Shown one piece after another: positions 57,828 to 62,935 of a DNA stretch of 64,000 nt. The stretch is taken from positions 1 through 64,000 of the forward strand of contig JAGXLV010000007.1 of the NCBI GenBank assembly GCA_018334495.1. Reading direction: 5' to 3'. Within the stretch, counting starts at the first letter, position 1, and each line of letters starts with the position of its first letter. Under the pieces are notes generated by a model, which worked only from the letters and a program-made list of their open reading frames with translations, was not told the DNA's origin and did no database searches. The DNA comes from Oleiphilaceae bacterium. Its GTDB lineage: Bacteria; Pseudomonadota; Gammaproteobacteria; Pseudomonadales; Oleiphilaceae. A program made the position numbers and the translations under genes.

Positions 57828-59195
57828 ATGAAGGACAAAAGACCGCTTGTTTGGCTGTCGTCGGCGCCCTGCCGTTCCAAACACAGTATCGAACTGGGAT
57901 CACACTGGCATGTCCACCCACTGGACATGACCCAGCCGCCTGTCAATTCAGCTGTCATACCGAATTCCAGGGTGGGTATCCTCGATTTCAGCGAATATTC
58001 CGCAGCGTCCGACCTGACCCGCCTTGATCAGTGGTTCGACACTCTCAGGCTGCCCCACTGGGTCGGGATTCTTGCATCCCCACCCCAGGAGGATAAACAA
58101 CTCCGGGCGCTGGTGTCACAGTATTGCTCTGACTACCACAGGCTGCCAATTGACTGCGAACGGCTGAATACCATATTGGGCCATTTGTGGGGAATGGCAG
58201 AATTGCAAATGCCGACCCACAATCCAACAATCGACAGTTACCAGCCTTTTGCCCTTGAGGGCCCATCGACTGCAATTTCCCGAACCCGCTCCCTGTTAAG
58301 GCGCTTCGGCCAGACTCATGAGCCGGTTCTCATTCACGGTGAGAGCGGCACTGGAAAAGAAGCCGCCGCCAGATTTATACATACCAACTCACCACAGCGG
58401 CATGCGCCATTAATCACCATTAACTGTGCGGCATTGCCCCTGTCACTCACTCAGAGCGAACTTTTCGGCTATGAAAAAGGCGCGTTTACCGGCGCGACCA
58501 CTGGCCGGCCGGGACGGCTGGAGGCTGCCGACGGCGGCACACTCCTGATCGCCGGCATTGACGAACTCAAGCCCGAACAGCAATCGGCACTGCTGTTATT
58601 CCTGCAGGAGGGCCTGGTGGAGCGAATCGGCGCGGTCACCCCGCGAAAAGTCACCGCCCGTGTCATAGCCACCAGCACAGCGGCCCTTGATAGAGAAGTT
58701 GCAGCAGGGCGTTTCAGAGGGGACGTGTATTACCGGCTGGGAGAGCTGGAAATCCAGATGCCGGCCCTTAGAAATCGCCGCGAGGATATCCTGTTCATTC
58801 TGAAAAACATGATCGCCGGCAAAAAAACCACCCTGAACATAAAAAACCTGAGCCTGGACAGCATGCATTGCCTGCTTCAACACGACTGGCCCGGTAATCT
58901 CCAGGAGTTGCAGAATCGTCTCGCCAAAGCCTTTTTGCTGGGCGACCGGCCGCTGCTTGAGCCCTGGGACTTTGGACTTGCCGAAAACATCGCGGCCATG
59001 CCCCCGTTAACCGAGCTTCGCCTTGAGCGATACCGTGACCTGGCGGAGCAAGAGGCTTTGTCTTACAGCCTTACGCTAAGCCATCAGAATGTTTCAGCGG
59101 CGGCACGACTGCTGGGAATCTCGCGGGTTTCCTTTTATCGGCTGATGGCAAAACACGATCCCAGGAAAGCGCTGGAAAAGCCGAAGCAGACTTGA
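57828..59195 (+). CDS. VpsR-like sigma54-type enhancer-binding regulator with altered Walker B
   Basis: A 455-residue regulator: an N-terminal degenerate receiver-like domain (about 1-125; VGILDFSEY without a phospho-acceptor set, as in VpsR), an AAA+ domain (about 145-375) and a Fis-type HTH (about 405-450, NVSAAARLLGISRVSFYRLM). Walker A GESGTGKE and the sigma54-contact loop GAFTGA are intact, but Walker B reads GGTLLIAGIDEL, so the usual Asp-Glu pair is A242-G243. The arginine-finger region RGDVYYRLGELEI is present. It shares an operon with the FapF-like porin and probably controls the facing matrix operon. Whether it uses ATP hydrolysis is doubtful. Confidence 0.82.
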   Translation: MKDKRPLVWLSSAPCRSKHSIELGSHWHVHPLDMTQPPVNSAVIPNSRVGILDFSEYSAASDLTRLDQWFDTLRLPHWVGILASPPQEDKQLRALVSQYCSDYHRLPIDCERLNTILGHLWGMAELQMPTHNPTIDSYQPFALEGPSTAISRTRSLLRRFGQTHEPVLIHGESGTGKEAAARFIHTNSPQRHAPLITINCAALPLSLTQSELFGYEKGAFTGATTGRPGRLEAADGGTLLIAGIDELKPEQQSALLLFLQEGLVERIGAVTPRKVTARVIATSTAALDREVAAGRFRGDVYYRLGELEIQMPALRNRREDILFILKNMIAGKKTTLNIKNLSLDSMHCLLQHDWPGNLQELQNRLAKAFLLGDRPLLEPWDFGLAENIAAMPPLTELRLERYRDLAEQEALSYSLTLSHQNVSAAARLLGISRVSFYRLMAKHDPRKALEKPKQT

Positions 59196-59222: not shown

Positions 59223-60272
59223 ATGCAAAACTCAAGAATCCTACCGTTTTTGATCGGTTCGTTTCTTTACACTAATCCGTTGACCGCGCAGGAACAGAAT
59301 GTCAGCCCGAACCCGTCATCCGAACAGGCAGGCGACAGGGCCACGGAGATCGCGTCGATAACAACTGATCGCGGCATAGTGACTCAGCCGGGGCAGTTTA
59401 CTATTGAACCCTCCTTGTCTTATGCCCACAGCAATTCCACCCTCGTCGCCATTGAAGGCTTTACCATCATACCCGCCCTCGTGATCGGCCTGATCAACGT
59501 CTCGGAAGTACAGAGAGATATTTTTGTCGGCGCCCTGTCTTTTAAATACGGGTTCACCAGCCGTTTTGAGATGTCAGTCCGCGCGCCTTACCTGCGCATC
59601 GAAGAAGACCTTCGCGAACGCCAGGCTTTCGAGGGAACCCCCATAGACACCCTGCGAGAGTCCACGGGCGATGGCCTGGGCGATGTGGAATTATCCCTGC
59701 GTTATCAGGTCAACGACGGGCTCGATGGCTGGCCTTATCTGATCAGCGAGCTCAGGGTAAAAAGTCCCACTGGGGAAAGCCCTTTTGACGTACCTCAGCG
59801 GATCGTCCGTGACACTGAGGGCAACCCGATAGGCGTGGAACTCAGCGAACGACCGACCGGTTCGGGCTTTTGGTCCTTCGAACCGGGTTTGTCGTTTATT
59901 TACCCTTCCGAGCCAGCCGTCCTGTTTGGCAACCTCAGTTATGTCTGGACACAGGAAGAGGATCAGGGTGGCAACAACGGCAGGATCGACCCCGGCAATG
60001 TCGTCAGGTTCGGGTTTGGAATGGGGTTTGCGTTCAACGAACGCACCTCTTTCAGCCTGAGCTACAGCCATTCCGTGATTGGCGACACCTCCTTTGAGCA
60101 AAACAACAGCCTGACTGACTCCAATTTCGAGCGAATCCAGGTCGGGTCCCTGGCATTTGGCCTGTCCCAGCGCTTGAGCCCAAGCACCAGTTTGAGCCTG
60201 ACGGTCAGCGTTGGGGCGACGGATGAAGCGCCAGATACCGAAATAACGCTCAAATTACCGATGAGGTTCTGA
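59223..60272 (+). CDS. FapF-like outer-membrane beta-barrel protein
   Basis: A 349-residue exported protein with a signal peptide (about 1-22, ending PLTAQ), a short polar N-terminal region and a beta-barrel with alternating strands to a terminal Phe (KLPMRF), as needed for BAM insertion. Segments TDRGIVTQPGQFTIEPSLSY, GFTSRFEMSVRAPYL and GDGLGDVELSLRYQ are typical of the FapF / phenol-degradation MetA-like barrel family. FapF exports amyloid subunits in Pseudomonas. Here it follows the regulator by 27 bp and faces the putative cargo genes. The N-terminal coiled coil of FapF is short or missing. Confidence 0.75.
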   Translation: MQNSRILPFLIGSFLYTNPLTAQEQNVSPNPSSEQAGDRATEIASITTDRGIVTQPGQFTIEPSLSYAHSNSTLVAIEGFTIIPALVIGLINVSEVQRDIFVGALSFKYGFTSRFEMSVRAPYLRIEEDLRERQAFEGTPIDTLRESTGDGLGDVELSLRYQVNDGLDGWPYLISELRVKSPTGESPFDVPQRIVRDTEGNPIGVELSERPTGSGFWSFEPGLSFIYPSEPAVLFGNLSYVWTQEEDQGGNNGRIDPGNVVRFGFGMGFAFNERTSFSLSYSHSVIGDTSFEQNNSLTDSNFERIQVGSLAFGLSQRLSPSTSLSLTVSVGATDEAPDTEITLKLPMRF

Positions 60273-60314: not shown

Positions 60315-60803
60315 TCAGCGCCCCAGGTATTGCAGCATTTGATCATCCAGGTTGAAAGGCAGCCGCTGGCCAGGGCCCAGATTATTCACTTCAATGTCAA
60401 GTTGCCGAAGATTCTGTATCACCGCACTGTCAAGGCGATTCTGAACAAAACTGGAGAAGCTCGAGCCATCGCCGGCGCTGCCGGACACGATCGTGCCCGC
60501 TTCCTGGCCAACGCCTCCTCTGTGAATCATATTTTCAATCTGGTGAGTAATGACACCGCCGTTGAGCGGCCCGTTCAGATTGGGGATGGTCAGCCGATTG
60601 ACCACCATGTCCTCGCCGTTGATAGAGACGACCTGCTCCAGCCCGATGGCAATTTCCAGATCGCCTACCTGAAACCCGCCCCGACGGGACTCAAGCGCCT
60701 GGTCATCCAGGGGCGGGACAGGCAAGGCCAGGCTGGCGGCTACTGTTGGGGCCGCGCCCACGATTAACACCGTCACACAAATTGGAAAGAAGTAAGTCTT
60801 CAT
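60315..60803 (-). CDS. Exported protein with double-glycine-type motif and QN module
   Basis: A 162-residue protein with a Sec signal (about 1-23, MKTYFFPICVTVLIVGAAP) followed by LDDQALESRRGG (residues 32-43), which matches the LSxxELxxIxGG leader of C39 substrates at most positions. After it comes FQVGDLEIAIGLEQVV and near the C-terminus QN-x5-VIQ-x3-Q (from residue 121), the module shared with the two other secreted proteins of the operon. I do not recognise a named family; FapE may be its positional counterpart. ATG 60803 begins the signal peptide and lies 5 bp after the C39 gene. Confidence 0.72.
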   Translation of the reverse strand: MKTYFFPICVTVLIVGAAPTVAASLALPVPPLDDQALESRRGGFQVGDLEIAIGLEQVVSINGEDMVVNRLTIPNLNGPLNGGVITHQIENMIHRGGVGQEAGTIVSGSAGDGSSFSSFVQNRLDSAVIQNLRQLDIEVNNLGPGQRLPFNLDDQMLQYLGR

Positions 60804-60808
60804 TGGCG

Positions 60809-61501
60809 TTACCATTCCTGTGTCGAGGGCCAATAAGGCAGCGTGTGACCCACGGGGGGTTCTACCAACCCCTCCTGTAACGGAGCCCTGGTGACCTGAG
60901 CCCAGTCCTCTTCCGTTGAAAATGCACGTCGCCCTGTTTCAAGGTGGTTACGGATGACAAAGGCGGTACCGTCCCAGGACTCCTCAAACTCCTGATGAGA
61001 GTAGGCGTTCACACCACGAGCGGGATCGCCCACCAATACTTCTTTGTCATTGATGCCCTTGATGACAACAAAATGCCGAAAGCCATTCAGATTCAACAGG
61101 ACAATCGTGGGCAAACGAACCTGCTCGCGCAGCCCCTTCAAGGGCAAGCGAATGCCATCCGCCTGATAGCCCTCGGCCCCCAGAAAATTCTTCATGTCGA
61201 GCATCGAAAAGCCTTCCTGCCGCACTTTGCCCGCATCGGCCAGGGCAAGCATGGATTCAAACACTTCCCGCTCGCTGAATTCGTCGTCATAGTGGAAAGT
61301 CAAAAGCGAAGCTACCGCCGCGGAGCCGCAGCTGAAGTCGTATTCTTGCTGAAAAATACGGTCGAACCGGCGTTCCTGAAAACTGGTCACCGGCACGGAA
61401 AGACTGCCCGCAATACCCGGAATGGTCACCGAGCCGGCAAAACCGGTGGACCATACCAGGCTGGCACCTGCGCCTAAGACAGCAAGCCGCCATCCTTTCA
61501 T
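60809..61501 (-). CDS. Periplasmic C39-family peptidase (FapD-like)
   Basis: A 230-residue protein with a signal peptide (about 1-22, ending GFAGS) and a stand-alone C39 cysteine peptidase domain without the ABC transporter part. The catalytic set is visible: Q52 and C58 in QQEYDFSCGSAAV, H143 in GFRHFVVIKG and D159 in VGDPARG. The FSMLDMKNFLGAEGY stretch is typical of FapD-like proteins. C39 enzymes cut after double glycine; the neighbouring protein with RRGG is a candidate substrate. GGAGGT lies 4 nt before the ATG. Confidence 0.85.
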   Translation of the reverse strand: MKGWRLAVLGAGASLVWSTGFAGSVTIPGIAGSLSVPVTSFQERRFDRIFQQEYDFSCGSAAVASLLTFHYDDEFSEREVFESMLALADAGKVRQEGFSMLDMKNFLGAEGYQADGIRLPLKGLREQVRLPTIVLLNLNGFRHFVVIKGINDKEVLVGDPARGVNAYSHQEFEESWDGTAFVIRNHLETGRRAFSTEEDWAQVTRAPLQEGLVEPPVGHTLPYWPSTQEW

Positions 61502-61513
61502 GGCCCACCTCCG

Positions 61514-61864
61514 TTATTGGTTAATAAGAATGTTGACCTGAGTGCTGTCCTGAATGACCACCTGGTTTCCAGTGTTCTGGATAACTGTGGCAATTCCGCT
61601 CATGTTGCCAAACGCATTGTCAGAGATCGTGTTATCCCCTGTAGCCACATTGCCCGACAGCACATTATCGGAAACACTGCCAGTCTGTTGATTTTCGTTT
61701 AATTGCCACTGCATCGGTATACCTTGCCGGCCGCTTGAGTCTGCCAGTTGGTCCGGCGACAGTCGCGCCGCCTCCAACCATTCCTCAGCGACTGAAGGAG
61801 ACACCCACCCAAACATCAACAGCAACAAGGCAACTCTCAACTCCAATCTGATGACGTCACCCAT
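61514..61864 (-). CDS. Small secreted amyloid-like protein (QN module)
   Basis: A 116-residue protein with a signal peptide (about 1-28, ending SPSVAEE), a short helical part (EEWLEAARLSPDQLADS) and a C-terminal Asn/Gln/Thr/Val-rich half: NENQQTGSVSDNVLSGN and ISDNAFGNMSGIATVIQNTG. This ends in QN-x5-VIQ-x3-Q (from residue 96), reminiscent of curlin or Fap amyloid strands. It is 12 bp before the C39 gene, so it is part of the same operon. A role as nucleator or minor fibre subunit is inferred. ATG 61864 is preferred with GGGAG 7 nt upstream. Confidence 0.75.
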   Translation of the reverse strand: MGDVIRLELRVALLLLMFGWVSPSVAEEWLEAARLSPDQLADSSGRQGIPMQWQLNENQQTGSVSDNVLSGNVATGDNTISDNAFGNMSGIATVIQNTGNQVVIQDSTQVNILINQ

Positions 61865-61929
61865 GAGATTTCTCCCGGAAAACCCGGCCACACCGGAAAA
61901 ACCTCTTCCCGATGCGGCCCGACATTTCC

Positions 61930-62823
61930 CTAGTTGCCAGTGGACAGATTGGACTGAACACTGACATTGGCCTGGGTAACACTGGCGTTACCGGCGTTCT
62001 GGGAGATAGCGCCAACGCCGGTGAAGTTCGCTGAACCTCCGGAGATCTCATTGGTATGATTCACAGCGGTATAGGACCCTTCGCCCCTCGCATCCGCATA
62101 GGTTGTGGTGACTCCGGACACGGCGCCATCCAGTTCAGCGCTGTTCAGGAATGAGGTGGTTTCAAACGAATTGTTGCTGTCTGAAACGTTGTTGCTGTCG
62201 GATACACTGTTGTCTGTGTCTGTATCGACACTGTTATCTATATCGGTGTCGGAGTTGTCGTTATTGCTGTCAGCAACACTGTTATCGGTCTCAGAGTTGT
62301 CATTATTACTGTCGGCAACACTGTTGTCGGTGTCGGTATCGACACTGTTATCGGTTTCAGAGTTGTCGTTATTGCTGTCAGCAACACTGTTGTCGGTGTC
62401 AGTATCGGTCGCAGAGTTGTCGTTATTGCTGTCGGCAACGCTGTTGTCGGTGTCGGTATCGGTCTCAGAGTTGTCGTTATTGCTGTCGGCAACGCTGTTG
62501 TCGGTATCGACACTGTTATCTGTGTCGGTATCAGTCTCAGAGTTGTCGTTATTGCTGTCGGCAACACTGTTGTCGGTATCGACACTATTGTCGGTATCCG
62601 TGTCAGTGTCAGTGTCAGTGTCCGTGAAAACACTGTTGTCCGTGGAATTGTCATTACCGGAATTCGTGTTGCCTGACTCATCAGTGTTCGCAGTTGACGA
62701 GGCATTGGCATTGGTATTCGGGTCTCCGTCGCCGCCCTGGGTCACGTCCTGGGCGTAGGCGCCCCCGGAAAGTCCCAGTGCCAGTGCAACAGCTGCTGCC
62801 AATAAGCTTTTTTGAGTTTTCAT
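61930..62823 (-). CDS. Secreted Asp/Asn/Ser/Thr repeat protein, putative matrix or amyloid cargo
   Basis: A 297-residue protein with a clear signal peptide (about 1-24, ending GGAYAQD), then about 190 residues of low-complexity repeats (six copies of DNSVADSNNDNS separated by TDTDT or NSVDT spacers), and a C-terminal part (about 225-297) with GEGSYTAVNHTNEISGG and the QN module (from residue 275). The repeat is strongly acidic and could bind calcium. First gene of the minus-strand operon; a sigma54-type promoter candidate lies about 100 bp upstream. I read it as an extracellular matrix component; it could also be an adhesin. ATG 62823 starts the signal peptide. Confidence 0.78.
   Translation of the reverse strand: MKTQKSLLAAAVALALGLSGGAYAQDVTQGGDGDPNTNANASSTANTDESGNTNSGNDNSTDNSVFTDTDTDTDTDTDNSVDTDNSVADSNNDNSETDTDTDNSVDTDNSVADSNNDNSETDTDTDNSVADSNNDNSATDTDTDNSVADSNNDNSETDNSVDTDTDNSVADSNNDNSETDNSVADSNNDNSDTDIDNSVDTDTDNSVSDSNNVSDSNNSFETTSFLNSAELDGAVSGVTTTYADARGEGSYTAVNHTNEISGGSANFTGVGAISQNAGNASVTQANVSVQSNLSTGN
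62180..62640 (-). repeat. Tandem coding repeats in the Asp/Asn-rich secreted protein
   Basis: On the plus strand the words GTTGTCGTTATTGCTGTC and GTCGGTATCGACACTGTT recur many times. They encode DNSVADSNNDNS units (six copies, plus a degenerate seventh) and TDTDTDNS spacers. Spacing between copies varies, which points to unequal crossing-over or slippage. This DNA is a likely site of length variation between strains and of assembly errors. Confidence 0.9.
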
Positions 62824-62919: not shown

Positions 62920-62935
62920 TGCGATTACCATGCCA
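62920..62935 (-). promoter_or_regulatory. Candidate sigma54 (-24/-12) promoter of the matrix operon
   Basis: Read on the minus strand, 62935 to 62920 is TGGCATGGTAATCGCA, matching TGGCACGN4TTGCA at all but two positions and keeping the essential GG and GC dinucleotides 10 nt apart. Transcription would start about 85 nt before the ATG at 62823. A neighbouring sigma54-type activator with intact GAFTGA makes this credible. Confidence 0.5.

Follow-up and report, generated by a model that had tools for sequence, protein, structure and literature searches.

Among described systems the closest to the locus treated here is the Fap functional amyloid of Pseudomonas (FapABCDEF), in which the C39 peptidase FapD is periplasmic and secretion of FapC needs the catalytic Cys of that enzyme (PMC5557850). 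FapE alone was reported without N-terminal peptides in mass spectrometry, the target of FapD was called unclear, and Fap proteins were said to lack canonical C39 sequences (PMC5557850). Another account calls the FapD substrate undetermined, describes fapD–fapF pairs that co-localise in five further phyla, and gives the commonest operon variant as one without fapA (PMC6173800); matches to FapD and FapF models reach far past fap operons (PMC3792158), and a double glycine has been noted in FapF (PMC5135000).

The window considered here is a stretch of 64,000 nucleotides from an Oleiphilaceae bacterium (assembly GCA_018334495.1, contig JAGXLV010000007.1, positions 1 to 64,000), and near its end it encodes a repeat protein, a small protein, a C39 peptidase and a protein that we call the RRGG protein, together with a convergent gene for a FapF-like barrel. 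It is likely to be a divergent export system for functional amyloid of the Fap type, in which the C39 enzyme would cut a FapE-like leader and C-terminal modules containing the motif QN would stack in the fibre.

The QN module and its relation to the Fap repeat

A C-terminal module of ∼42 residues is common to the repeat, small and RRGG proteins, all encoded on the minus strand. The repeat protein (61930..62823), a candidate FapC-like fibre subunit, has a signal peptide recognized by eye, a long TDTDTDNS/DNS linker and a single copy of the module at 61939..62055 (module hidden Markov model, HMM, E 6.2e-10), slightly beyond the end at 62010 given by the sequence-only reading. The small protein (61514..61864), a candidate FapB-like nucleator with a leader of the FapE/FapA type, was started at the ATG of MGDV, the longest open reading frame (ORF) beginning at GTG 61891, and carries the module at 61517..61642 (E 2.4e-17). 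The FapE-like RRGG protein (60315..60803), which comprises a signal peptide recognized by eye, a leader and a module-bearing mature part, carries it at 60375..60500 (E 9.1e-13); the window rows are themselves part of the model that gives these three E-values. The strings QNAGNASVTQ (repeat), QNTGNQVVIQ (small) and QNRLDSAVIQ (RRGG) do stand in the register first proposed for them, and QVNILIN (small) and QLDIEVN (RRGG) follow the second Q.

Relatives were collected with phmmer at E<=1e-8 (57 small, two of them long repeat-type ORFs, and 46 RRGG), the repeat-protein family being gathered by C-terminal pattern and by hand. Modules were compared in hhalign against a column-permutation null, using 24 small, 26 RRGG and 19 repeat non-redundant rows; the RRGG rows were excised by a QN-holding pattern, and the small and repeat rows are the last 44 and 50 residues. 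Small and RRGG modules score 33.5 (null maximum 12.2, observed score reached in 0/200), and small and repeat modules 39.8 (null maximum 16.6, 0/200). Single-family HMMs were searched at E<=0.05 against 6324 ORFs of the fetched loci, nearly all of them around C39 genes: the small-only model matches 36 RRGG proteins (best 7.7e-7) as well as repeat proteins, the RRGG-only model matches 44 small proteins (best 1.1e-7) and no repeat proteins, and the repeat-only model matches 54 small proteins (best 2.2e-8) and three FapB/C-like proteins (best 4.7e-5). The proposal that one module is shared by three proteins therefore holds, because the small protein bridges the RRGG and repeat modules. An alignment of 30 RRGG proteins shows no variation at the Q and N of QN, and in an AlphaFold2 (AF2) model of the RRGG protein (mean predicted local distance difference test score, pLDDT, 63.4) strands run across the module at residues 115–124 and 127–141.

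It might be supposed that such likeness arises by chance in Q/N-rich sequence, given that the repeat protein is compositionally biased and that the similarity of RRGG and repeat modules, taken alone, is not significant. However, nulls that permute columns and keep composition match the observed score in 0/200 trials, the module HMM finds exactly three places in its own genome, all at this locus, and the model of one family matches members of another; on these grounds chance was dropped as very improbable.

The module HMM used for these searches (A1) was built from 45 modules, and many matching genomes supplied rows to it, although G188, G439, G174, G302, G369 and G528 did not. Its places in 38 relatives number 47 and come from 15 genomes; each adjoins an orthologous C39 gene, and ten same-genus genomes lack the module, nine of them with low-scoring C39 genes only and one without C39. 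A search of 369 genomes of the class gave 51 module places in 16 of them; 47 of the places lie <=3 kb from a C39 match, and in 15 of the 16 genomes (own genome included) every place is <=3 kb from a C39 gene. The sequence-only reading had asked whether matches would fall on random proteins without gene context, and the outcome in the 369 genomes did not refute the proposal, with 47/51 places near C39 and the other four confined to one genome, G528; the association with C39 stands in this direction, and fails in the converse, C39 genes often occurring without the module. In G528 (∼670 contigs; L207, L208, L209, L210) the module is found in secreted-looking 177-aa pairs or a 154-aa protein, and the C39 search of the 369 genomes gave no match in that assembly. 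A further 80 named loci were recruited by C39 alone, and 72 of them have a FapF-like barrel and 55 a module (E<=0.01); their genera presumably belong to the Gamma-, Beta-, Alpha- and Deltaproteobacteria.

Profile comparison makes the module a variant of the Fap repeat: over ∼40 residues it aligns with FapB repeat 3 in the same register. The small and repeat-protein modules score 18.1 and 22.2 against FapB repeat 3, and FapE scores 36.5 (null 0/100 each); FapB against the FapC repeat (39.1), FapE against the FapC repeat (18.0) and small against FapE (15.8) are also reached in 0/100 each, the links among FapB, FapC and FapE being partly built in through pattern-picked rows, which the small and repeat rows are not. 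The repeat protein is closer to FapB than to the FapC repeat (11.5, null 1/200). The anchor spacing G-4-N-3-G-6-N is retained, with both G present in 24/24 small modules, and the Asn positions are mostly replaced. An iterative HMM, searched only in ORFs of the fetched loci, drifted into low-complexity repeat proteins and is not taken as evidence.

Each FapC repeat has been described as one Greek-key cross-beta layer (PMC12392863), and the suggestion that the module is an amyloid strand gains from its homology to FapB repeat 3 and from two related genomes that carry it in four tandem copies. In these (L074 17-922; L076 41-952, which is L211 3593-4504 on the plus strand) a large subunit of ∼300 aa holds four modules ∼70 residues apart; the L211 protein matches the FapB model at E 0.081, and strands recur once per module in a predicted structure that was not used (alignment of 3, mean pLDDT 31.5). 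The same copies bear on the companion suggestion that the module serves mainly as a signal for export, recognized by the FapF-like barrel, any amyloid property being incidental. A single C-terminal copy in each of the proteins presumed to be cargo in the window (repeat, small and RRGG) would suit a signal of this kind, as would its position <=3 kb from a C39 gene in 14 of the 15 other module-bearing genomes of the class; beyond this common presence, however, nothing positive was found for it, and a copy number of 1 to 4 with internal tandem position argues against a pure C-terminal export signal. Related repeats are mostly three in FapB and FapC (PMC12392863, section 2.1) and are found inside FapE as well, the module proteins of G528 lie on contigs without C39, and 25 of the 80 named C39 loci have no module match, so that a role chiefly in export appears quite unlikely. 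The module is better read as a fibre-forming repeat, one layer to a copy.

A C39-type leader and a predicted substrate of FapD

The rest of the three sequences had been taken as unlike. A second shared element, a C39-type leader present in two of them, was overlooked. In the RRGG protein it follows the signal peptide at 60675..60710 of the minus strand (LDDQALESRRGG, then F) in the form L(-12)xxxxL(-7)xxxxG(-2)G(-1), and in the small protein it lies at 61727..61762 of the same strand (LSPDQLADSSGR). The described C39 consensus, L(-12)xxxE(-8)L(-7)xxxxG(-2)G(-1), is helical from -10 to -4, and binding becomes weak once L-7 or L-12 is altered (PMC6959990). The RRGG leader has both L and the GG of this consensus, with A at -8 in the window protein, and the AF2 model (mean pLDDT 63.4) places a separate helix at residues 34–40, which correspond to -10 to -4. 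All 46 RRGG relatives carry the leader, 45 within residue 110 and L019 at 115; in 29 non-redundant relatives L-7, GG and F+1 are each found in 29/29 and E-8 in 23/29, and L, R, G, G and F of the leader are invariant in 30 aligned proteins.

The clean RGG form in the window reveals a register that is then visible in 26/26 FapE proteins, where the leader ends G-R/K and Arg-Gly is invariant in the alignment. These proteins were gathered with phmmer from three kinds of seed, and all match NCBIfam FapE. Among 21 non-redundant FapE, position -1 is R in 13 and K in 7, the remaining row (L117) being a mispicked site whose true stretch is LSESRLSNIRGK. The small-protein leader is found by pattern in 49/55, and 35 non-redundant small proteins have L-7 in 35, G-2 in 35 and R29 K3 G2 Q1 at -1; the consensus G at -1 is absent from the window small protein and from FapE. 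A strict form of the motif occurs in 21/26 FapE (0.14 expected after shuffling), 38/46 RRGG (0.41) and 42/55 small proteins (0.19), and in 1/317 controls (C39 0/127, FapF 1/133, repeat 0/31, FapB/C-like 0/26).

Of the 80 named loci, 67 have a leader-bearing ORF downstream of C39, 41 have one upstream and 75 have one on at least one side; control ORFs, which include frames that are not genes, carry the motif in 10/1163. Thirteen of the loci are Marinobacter and non-independent, and the other 67 give 55 downstream and 41 upstream. The motif used in this count is partly looser (A at -12, A at -2) and requires R at -3, which leaves Marinobacter small proteins (SGR) uncounted; six of the 13 loci scored without a downstream leader show one by eye (L247, L254, L255, L269, L289, L291). 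A simpler count of the longest ORF beside C39, often the wrong frame, gives 48/76 downstream and 42/78 upstream (expected 6.8 and 5.4).

The stretch before the leader is highly variable. In the FapE-like proteins of L096 (4472-5683, minus) and L255 (5692-6843, plus) a membrane helix and a long coiled coil precede it (by eye in L096, where coiled-coil models also match), and in Pseudomonas a coiled coil is located on FapF (PMC5557850). In L231, L233–L236 and L239, from Halomonas and relatives, the leader ends RAG, not RGG, before F, and there is no module match. L167 holds two tandem fapB-, C-, D- and E-like sets, both with a leader-bearing FapE and with only one fapF seen. A leader-like stretch was also recognized by eye in 10/14 FapA phmmer matches (3 are without it), namely in FapA-like proteins of L097, L118, L120, L161–L165 and L167, and it may be asked whether FapA is a pseudo-substrate of FapD.

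We equate the RRGG protein with FapE because of gene position, leader and enzyme context, and not because of homology of the mature domains. Mature blocks are likewise not significantly similar between small and RRGG proteins (92/100) or between small proteins and FapE (33/100). Comparisons of leader with leader (0/100) are partly built in, the blocks being anchored on the motif, and are not relied on.

The candidate enzyme (60809..61501, minus strand; Pfam PF03412 E 3.4e-19; signal peptide by eye) matches NCBIfam FapD (NF058616) at E 3.9e-41 with 140.7 bits against a cut-off of 330, and FilB at E 1.2e-29, under the cut-off of that model. Its best sequence relative in the PDB is the double-glycine protease 6mpz (E 3.4e-8), and catalytic Gln52, Cys58, His143 and Asp159 are all invariant in 16/16 aligned sequences. 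Judged from sequence, the FapE/RRGG protein is likely the substrate of FapD, and the small protein is probably also cut by FapD-type enzymes, which yields an exact cleavage prediction. FapE ends its leader in RG[RK], where trypsin yields an identical terminus, and the cut may thus have been hidden from mass spectrometry. We found no statement of a FapE or RRGG leader in the available parts of the literature, most subscription journals lying outside the search; PMC5557850 was the sole match to a FapE leader as FapD substrate, and for functional amyloid in Marinobacter only papers unrelated by title came up.

It is conceivable, if unlikely, that the leader stays uncut and serves as a docking helix, as in substrate-binding-only peptidase-like domains, and that FapD targets FapF, FapC or another protein; R/K at -1 in FapE would fit such a role, as would a FapA that is leader-like yet unprocessed. 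Processing of the FapF linker has been proposed (PMC5557850), FapD has been drawn acting on FapC (PMC10638192), and one of 133 FapF ORFs carries the strict motif. Against this reading, all four catalytic residues are invariant in 16/16, secretion needs the catalytic Cys and FapE lacked its N-terminal peptides (PMC5557850), the 30 aligned RRGG proteins do not vary at RGGF, and the leader is preceded by a membrane anchor in L255 and, by eye, in L096.

The sequences themselves show the module with its network of homology, the leader with its specificity, and the surrounding genes; from these we infer cleavage, an order of steps, export, fibre formation and roles for the proteins. The repeat, small and RRGG proteins would reach the periplasm by Sec. 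Once processed, the RRGG (FapE-like) protein would begin with its leader, a helix of the double-glycine type; the FapD-like C39 peptidase would recognize this leader, and probably the one on the small protein too, and would cut after RGG (or RGR). The mature parts, freed by the cut, would leave through the FapF-like barrel, and outside the cell each copy of the QN module would give one cross-beta layer, such that one fibre may be built of large subunit, small nucleator and FapE-like protein stacked together.

There is also a fair case, made with less assurance than that for the locus itself, for a general two-signal export route in Proteobacteria, in which a Sec signal is followed by a double-glycine-type leader read by an extracytoplasmic FapD-family C39 enzyme and then by passage through a FapF-type barrel. 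The leader would end R[GA]G or RG[RK] and sit on FapE-type (and nucleator) proteins, its removal may license passage of the repeat-bearing amyloid subunits, and in many systems the repeat would be a Fap variant missed by Fap-specific models.

Several results weigh against a Fap-type system with a C39-cut leader. By profile comparison the RRGG and repeat modules are not significantly similar directly (1.9, null reaches 146/200), nor is the small module similar to the FapC repeat (4.6, 50/200), nor the RRGG module to the FapE module (35/100), to FapB (98/100) or to the FapC repeat (0.9, 196/200), nor the RRGG N-block to that of FapE (38/100). The published Fap repeat pattern X15GX4NX3GX6NX7 (PMC3792158) fits 0/24 small, 1/19 repeat and 0/25 RRGG modules; FapB repeat 3 fits in 13/13, in a set chosen by a similar pattern. 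No window protein reaches a Fap equivalog cut-off, and the small and RRGG proteins matched no NCBIfam model at E<=10. The remaining 4/51 module places are all in G528, on contigs without C39, and among 56/369 class genomes with a C39 match 15 have the module and 41 do not; the 25/80 named C39 loci without a module match include many from Halomonas and relatives. FapE and most small proteins have R/K at -1, and the narrow cleft of PCAT1 is said to explain specificity for Gly (PMC6959990). FapA–D were seen unprocessed (PMC5557850), though FapA has a leader-like stretch, and one published model has FapD modify FapC, unlike the reading preferred here (PMC10638192).

Gene layout and putative regulation

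The FapF-like outer-membrane barrel (59223..60272, plus strand) is convergent to the operon and matches NCBIfam FapF (NF058560) at E 1.6e-44 with 152.4 bits, short of the cut-off of 700; its best sequence relative in the PDB is FapF 5o67 (E 2.8e-35), and a long N-terminal coiled coil was not seen by eye. Upstream of the barrel gene lies a sigma-54-dependent activator with a VpsR-type N-domain (57828..59195, plus strand; Pfam PF00158 and PF20161). In 20 regions from family relatives (L031–L050) the small, C39 and FapF genes are found in 20/20, the activator in 18/20 and, by BLAST, the RRGG gene in 17/20, and in the three without an RRGG match (L046, L047, L049) a leader-bearing gene occupies its position.

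A candidate sigma-54-type promoter, TGGCATGGTAATCGC, resembles TGGCAYGGNAATCGC and is located at 62921..62935 on the minus strand, 112 nt ahead of the ATG of the repeat protein. Of 18 relatives looked at, 13 had a callable repeat gene, and a TGGCAYGGNAATCGC-like site stands 81–117 nt before its ATG in 11/13 (0.45/13 expected after shuffling), which fits the adjoining sigma-54 activator. In L034 (5924-10370) the small–C39–RRGG cassette is in tandem duplicate with two repeat-gene modules. The repeat-protein linker is Gly/Asn-rich rather than DNS-rich in L047, L049, L173 and L174, where linker chemistry shifts and the leader stays.

Family models for the subunits were largely silent. The repeat protein has no Pfam match at E<=1, Pfam gave nothing useful for the small protein or the RRGG protein, no window protein matched NCBIfam FapB or FapC at E<=1, and Foldseek found nothing in the PDB for the RRGG model at E<=0.001 (best 0.047). 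NCBIfam FapE has no match in the own genome at E<=0.001 (control: 26/26 FapE proteins match). FapA has no match among the six locus proteins, nor in the own genome (91.5% complete) at E<=0.001, where the controls are also silent.

Comparison with curli, Fil, double-glycine and Fap systems

Curli likewise has Q/N-rich repeats in its major and minor subunits (CsgA/CsgB). Membership was dropped in view of a different exporter and of the lack of a curlin Pfam match at E<=1 in the six proteins.

The putative Fil pilus system (FilA, FilB and FilC, by NCBIfam names) shares with the window a C39 enzyme, FilB, and a FapF-like barrel, FilC, and in FilA-type proteins the signal is followed by MTDTAMSNATGQ or MDESAMSDVSGQ, placed in the register of the leader. 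It differs in having GQ in place of GG, and G169 and G372, which hold these FilA-type proteins, have no module match. In L091 (8512-9474, minus) and L092 (284-1762, plus) the FilA-type stretch reads M(-12)..M(-7)..G(-2)Q(-1), and the weak FilA match of L092 (residues 54–85, E 0.0018) spans it. Membership in Fil was dropped, the window proteins falling far under the cut-offs (FilB 103.5 of 475 bits, FilC 56.1 of 630 bits); no paper linking FilA, FilB and FilC to an Acinetobacter pilus was found.

The double-glycine leaders of PCAT and bacteriocin systems (CtA/PCAT1, LahT) have the same L(-12), L(-7), G(-2)G(-1) spacing, E(-8) as in most RRGG relatives, a helix at -10 to -4 (AF2 for the window) and the C39 catalytic residues. 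In the window, by contrast, the leader comes after a Sec-type signal, position -1 is often R/K, and the enzyme appears to be secreted and stand-alone, with no ABC transporter.

Fap of Pseudomonas is the nearest of these, although the window has no detected FapA, one module per protein, replaced anchor Asn positions and a convergent barrel gene without the long N-terminal coiled coil, and its leader ends RGG where that of Fap ends RG[RK]; all Fap equivalog cut-offs are missed. Common to the two are a C39 peptidase of the FapD kind with a FapF-family barrel, an adjoining sigma-54-type activator (by eye in L161 and L167), a leader-bearing protein, FapE, encoded directly after fapD, and Q/N repeats shared by several secreted subunits. 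The leader register also offers candidate cargo genes for FapD–FapF pairs beyond the canonical operon.

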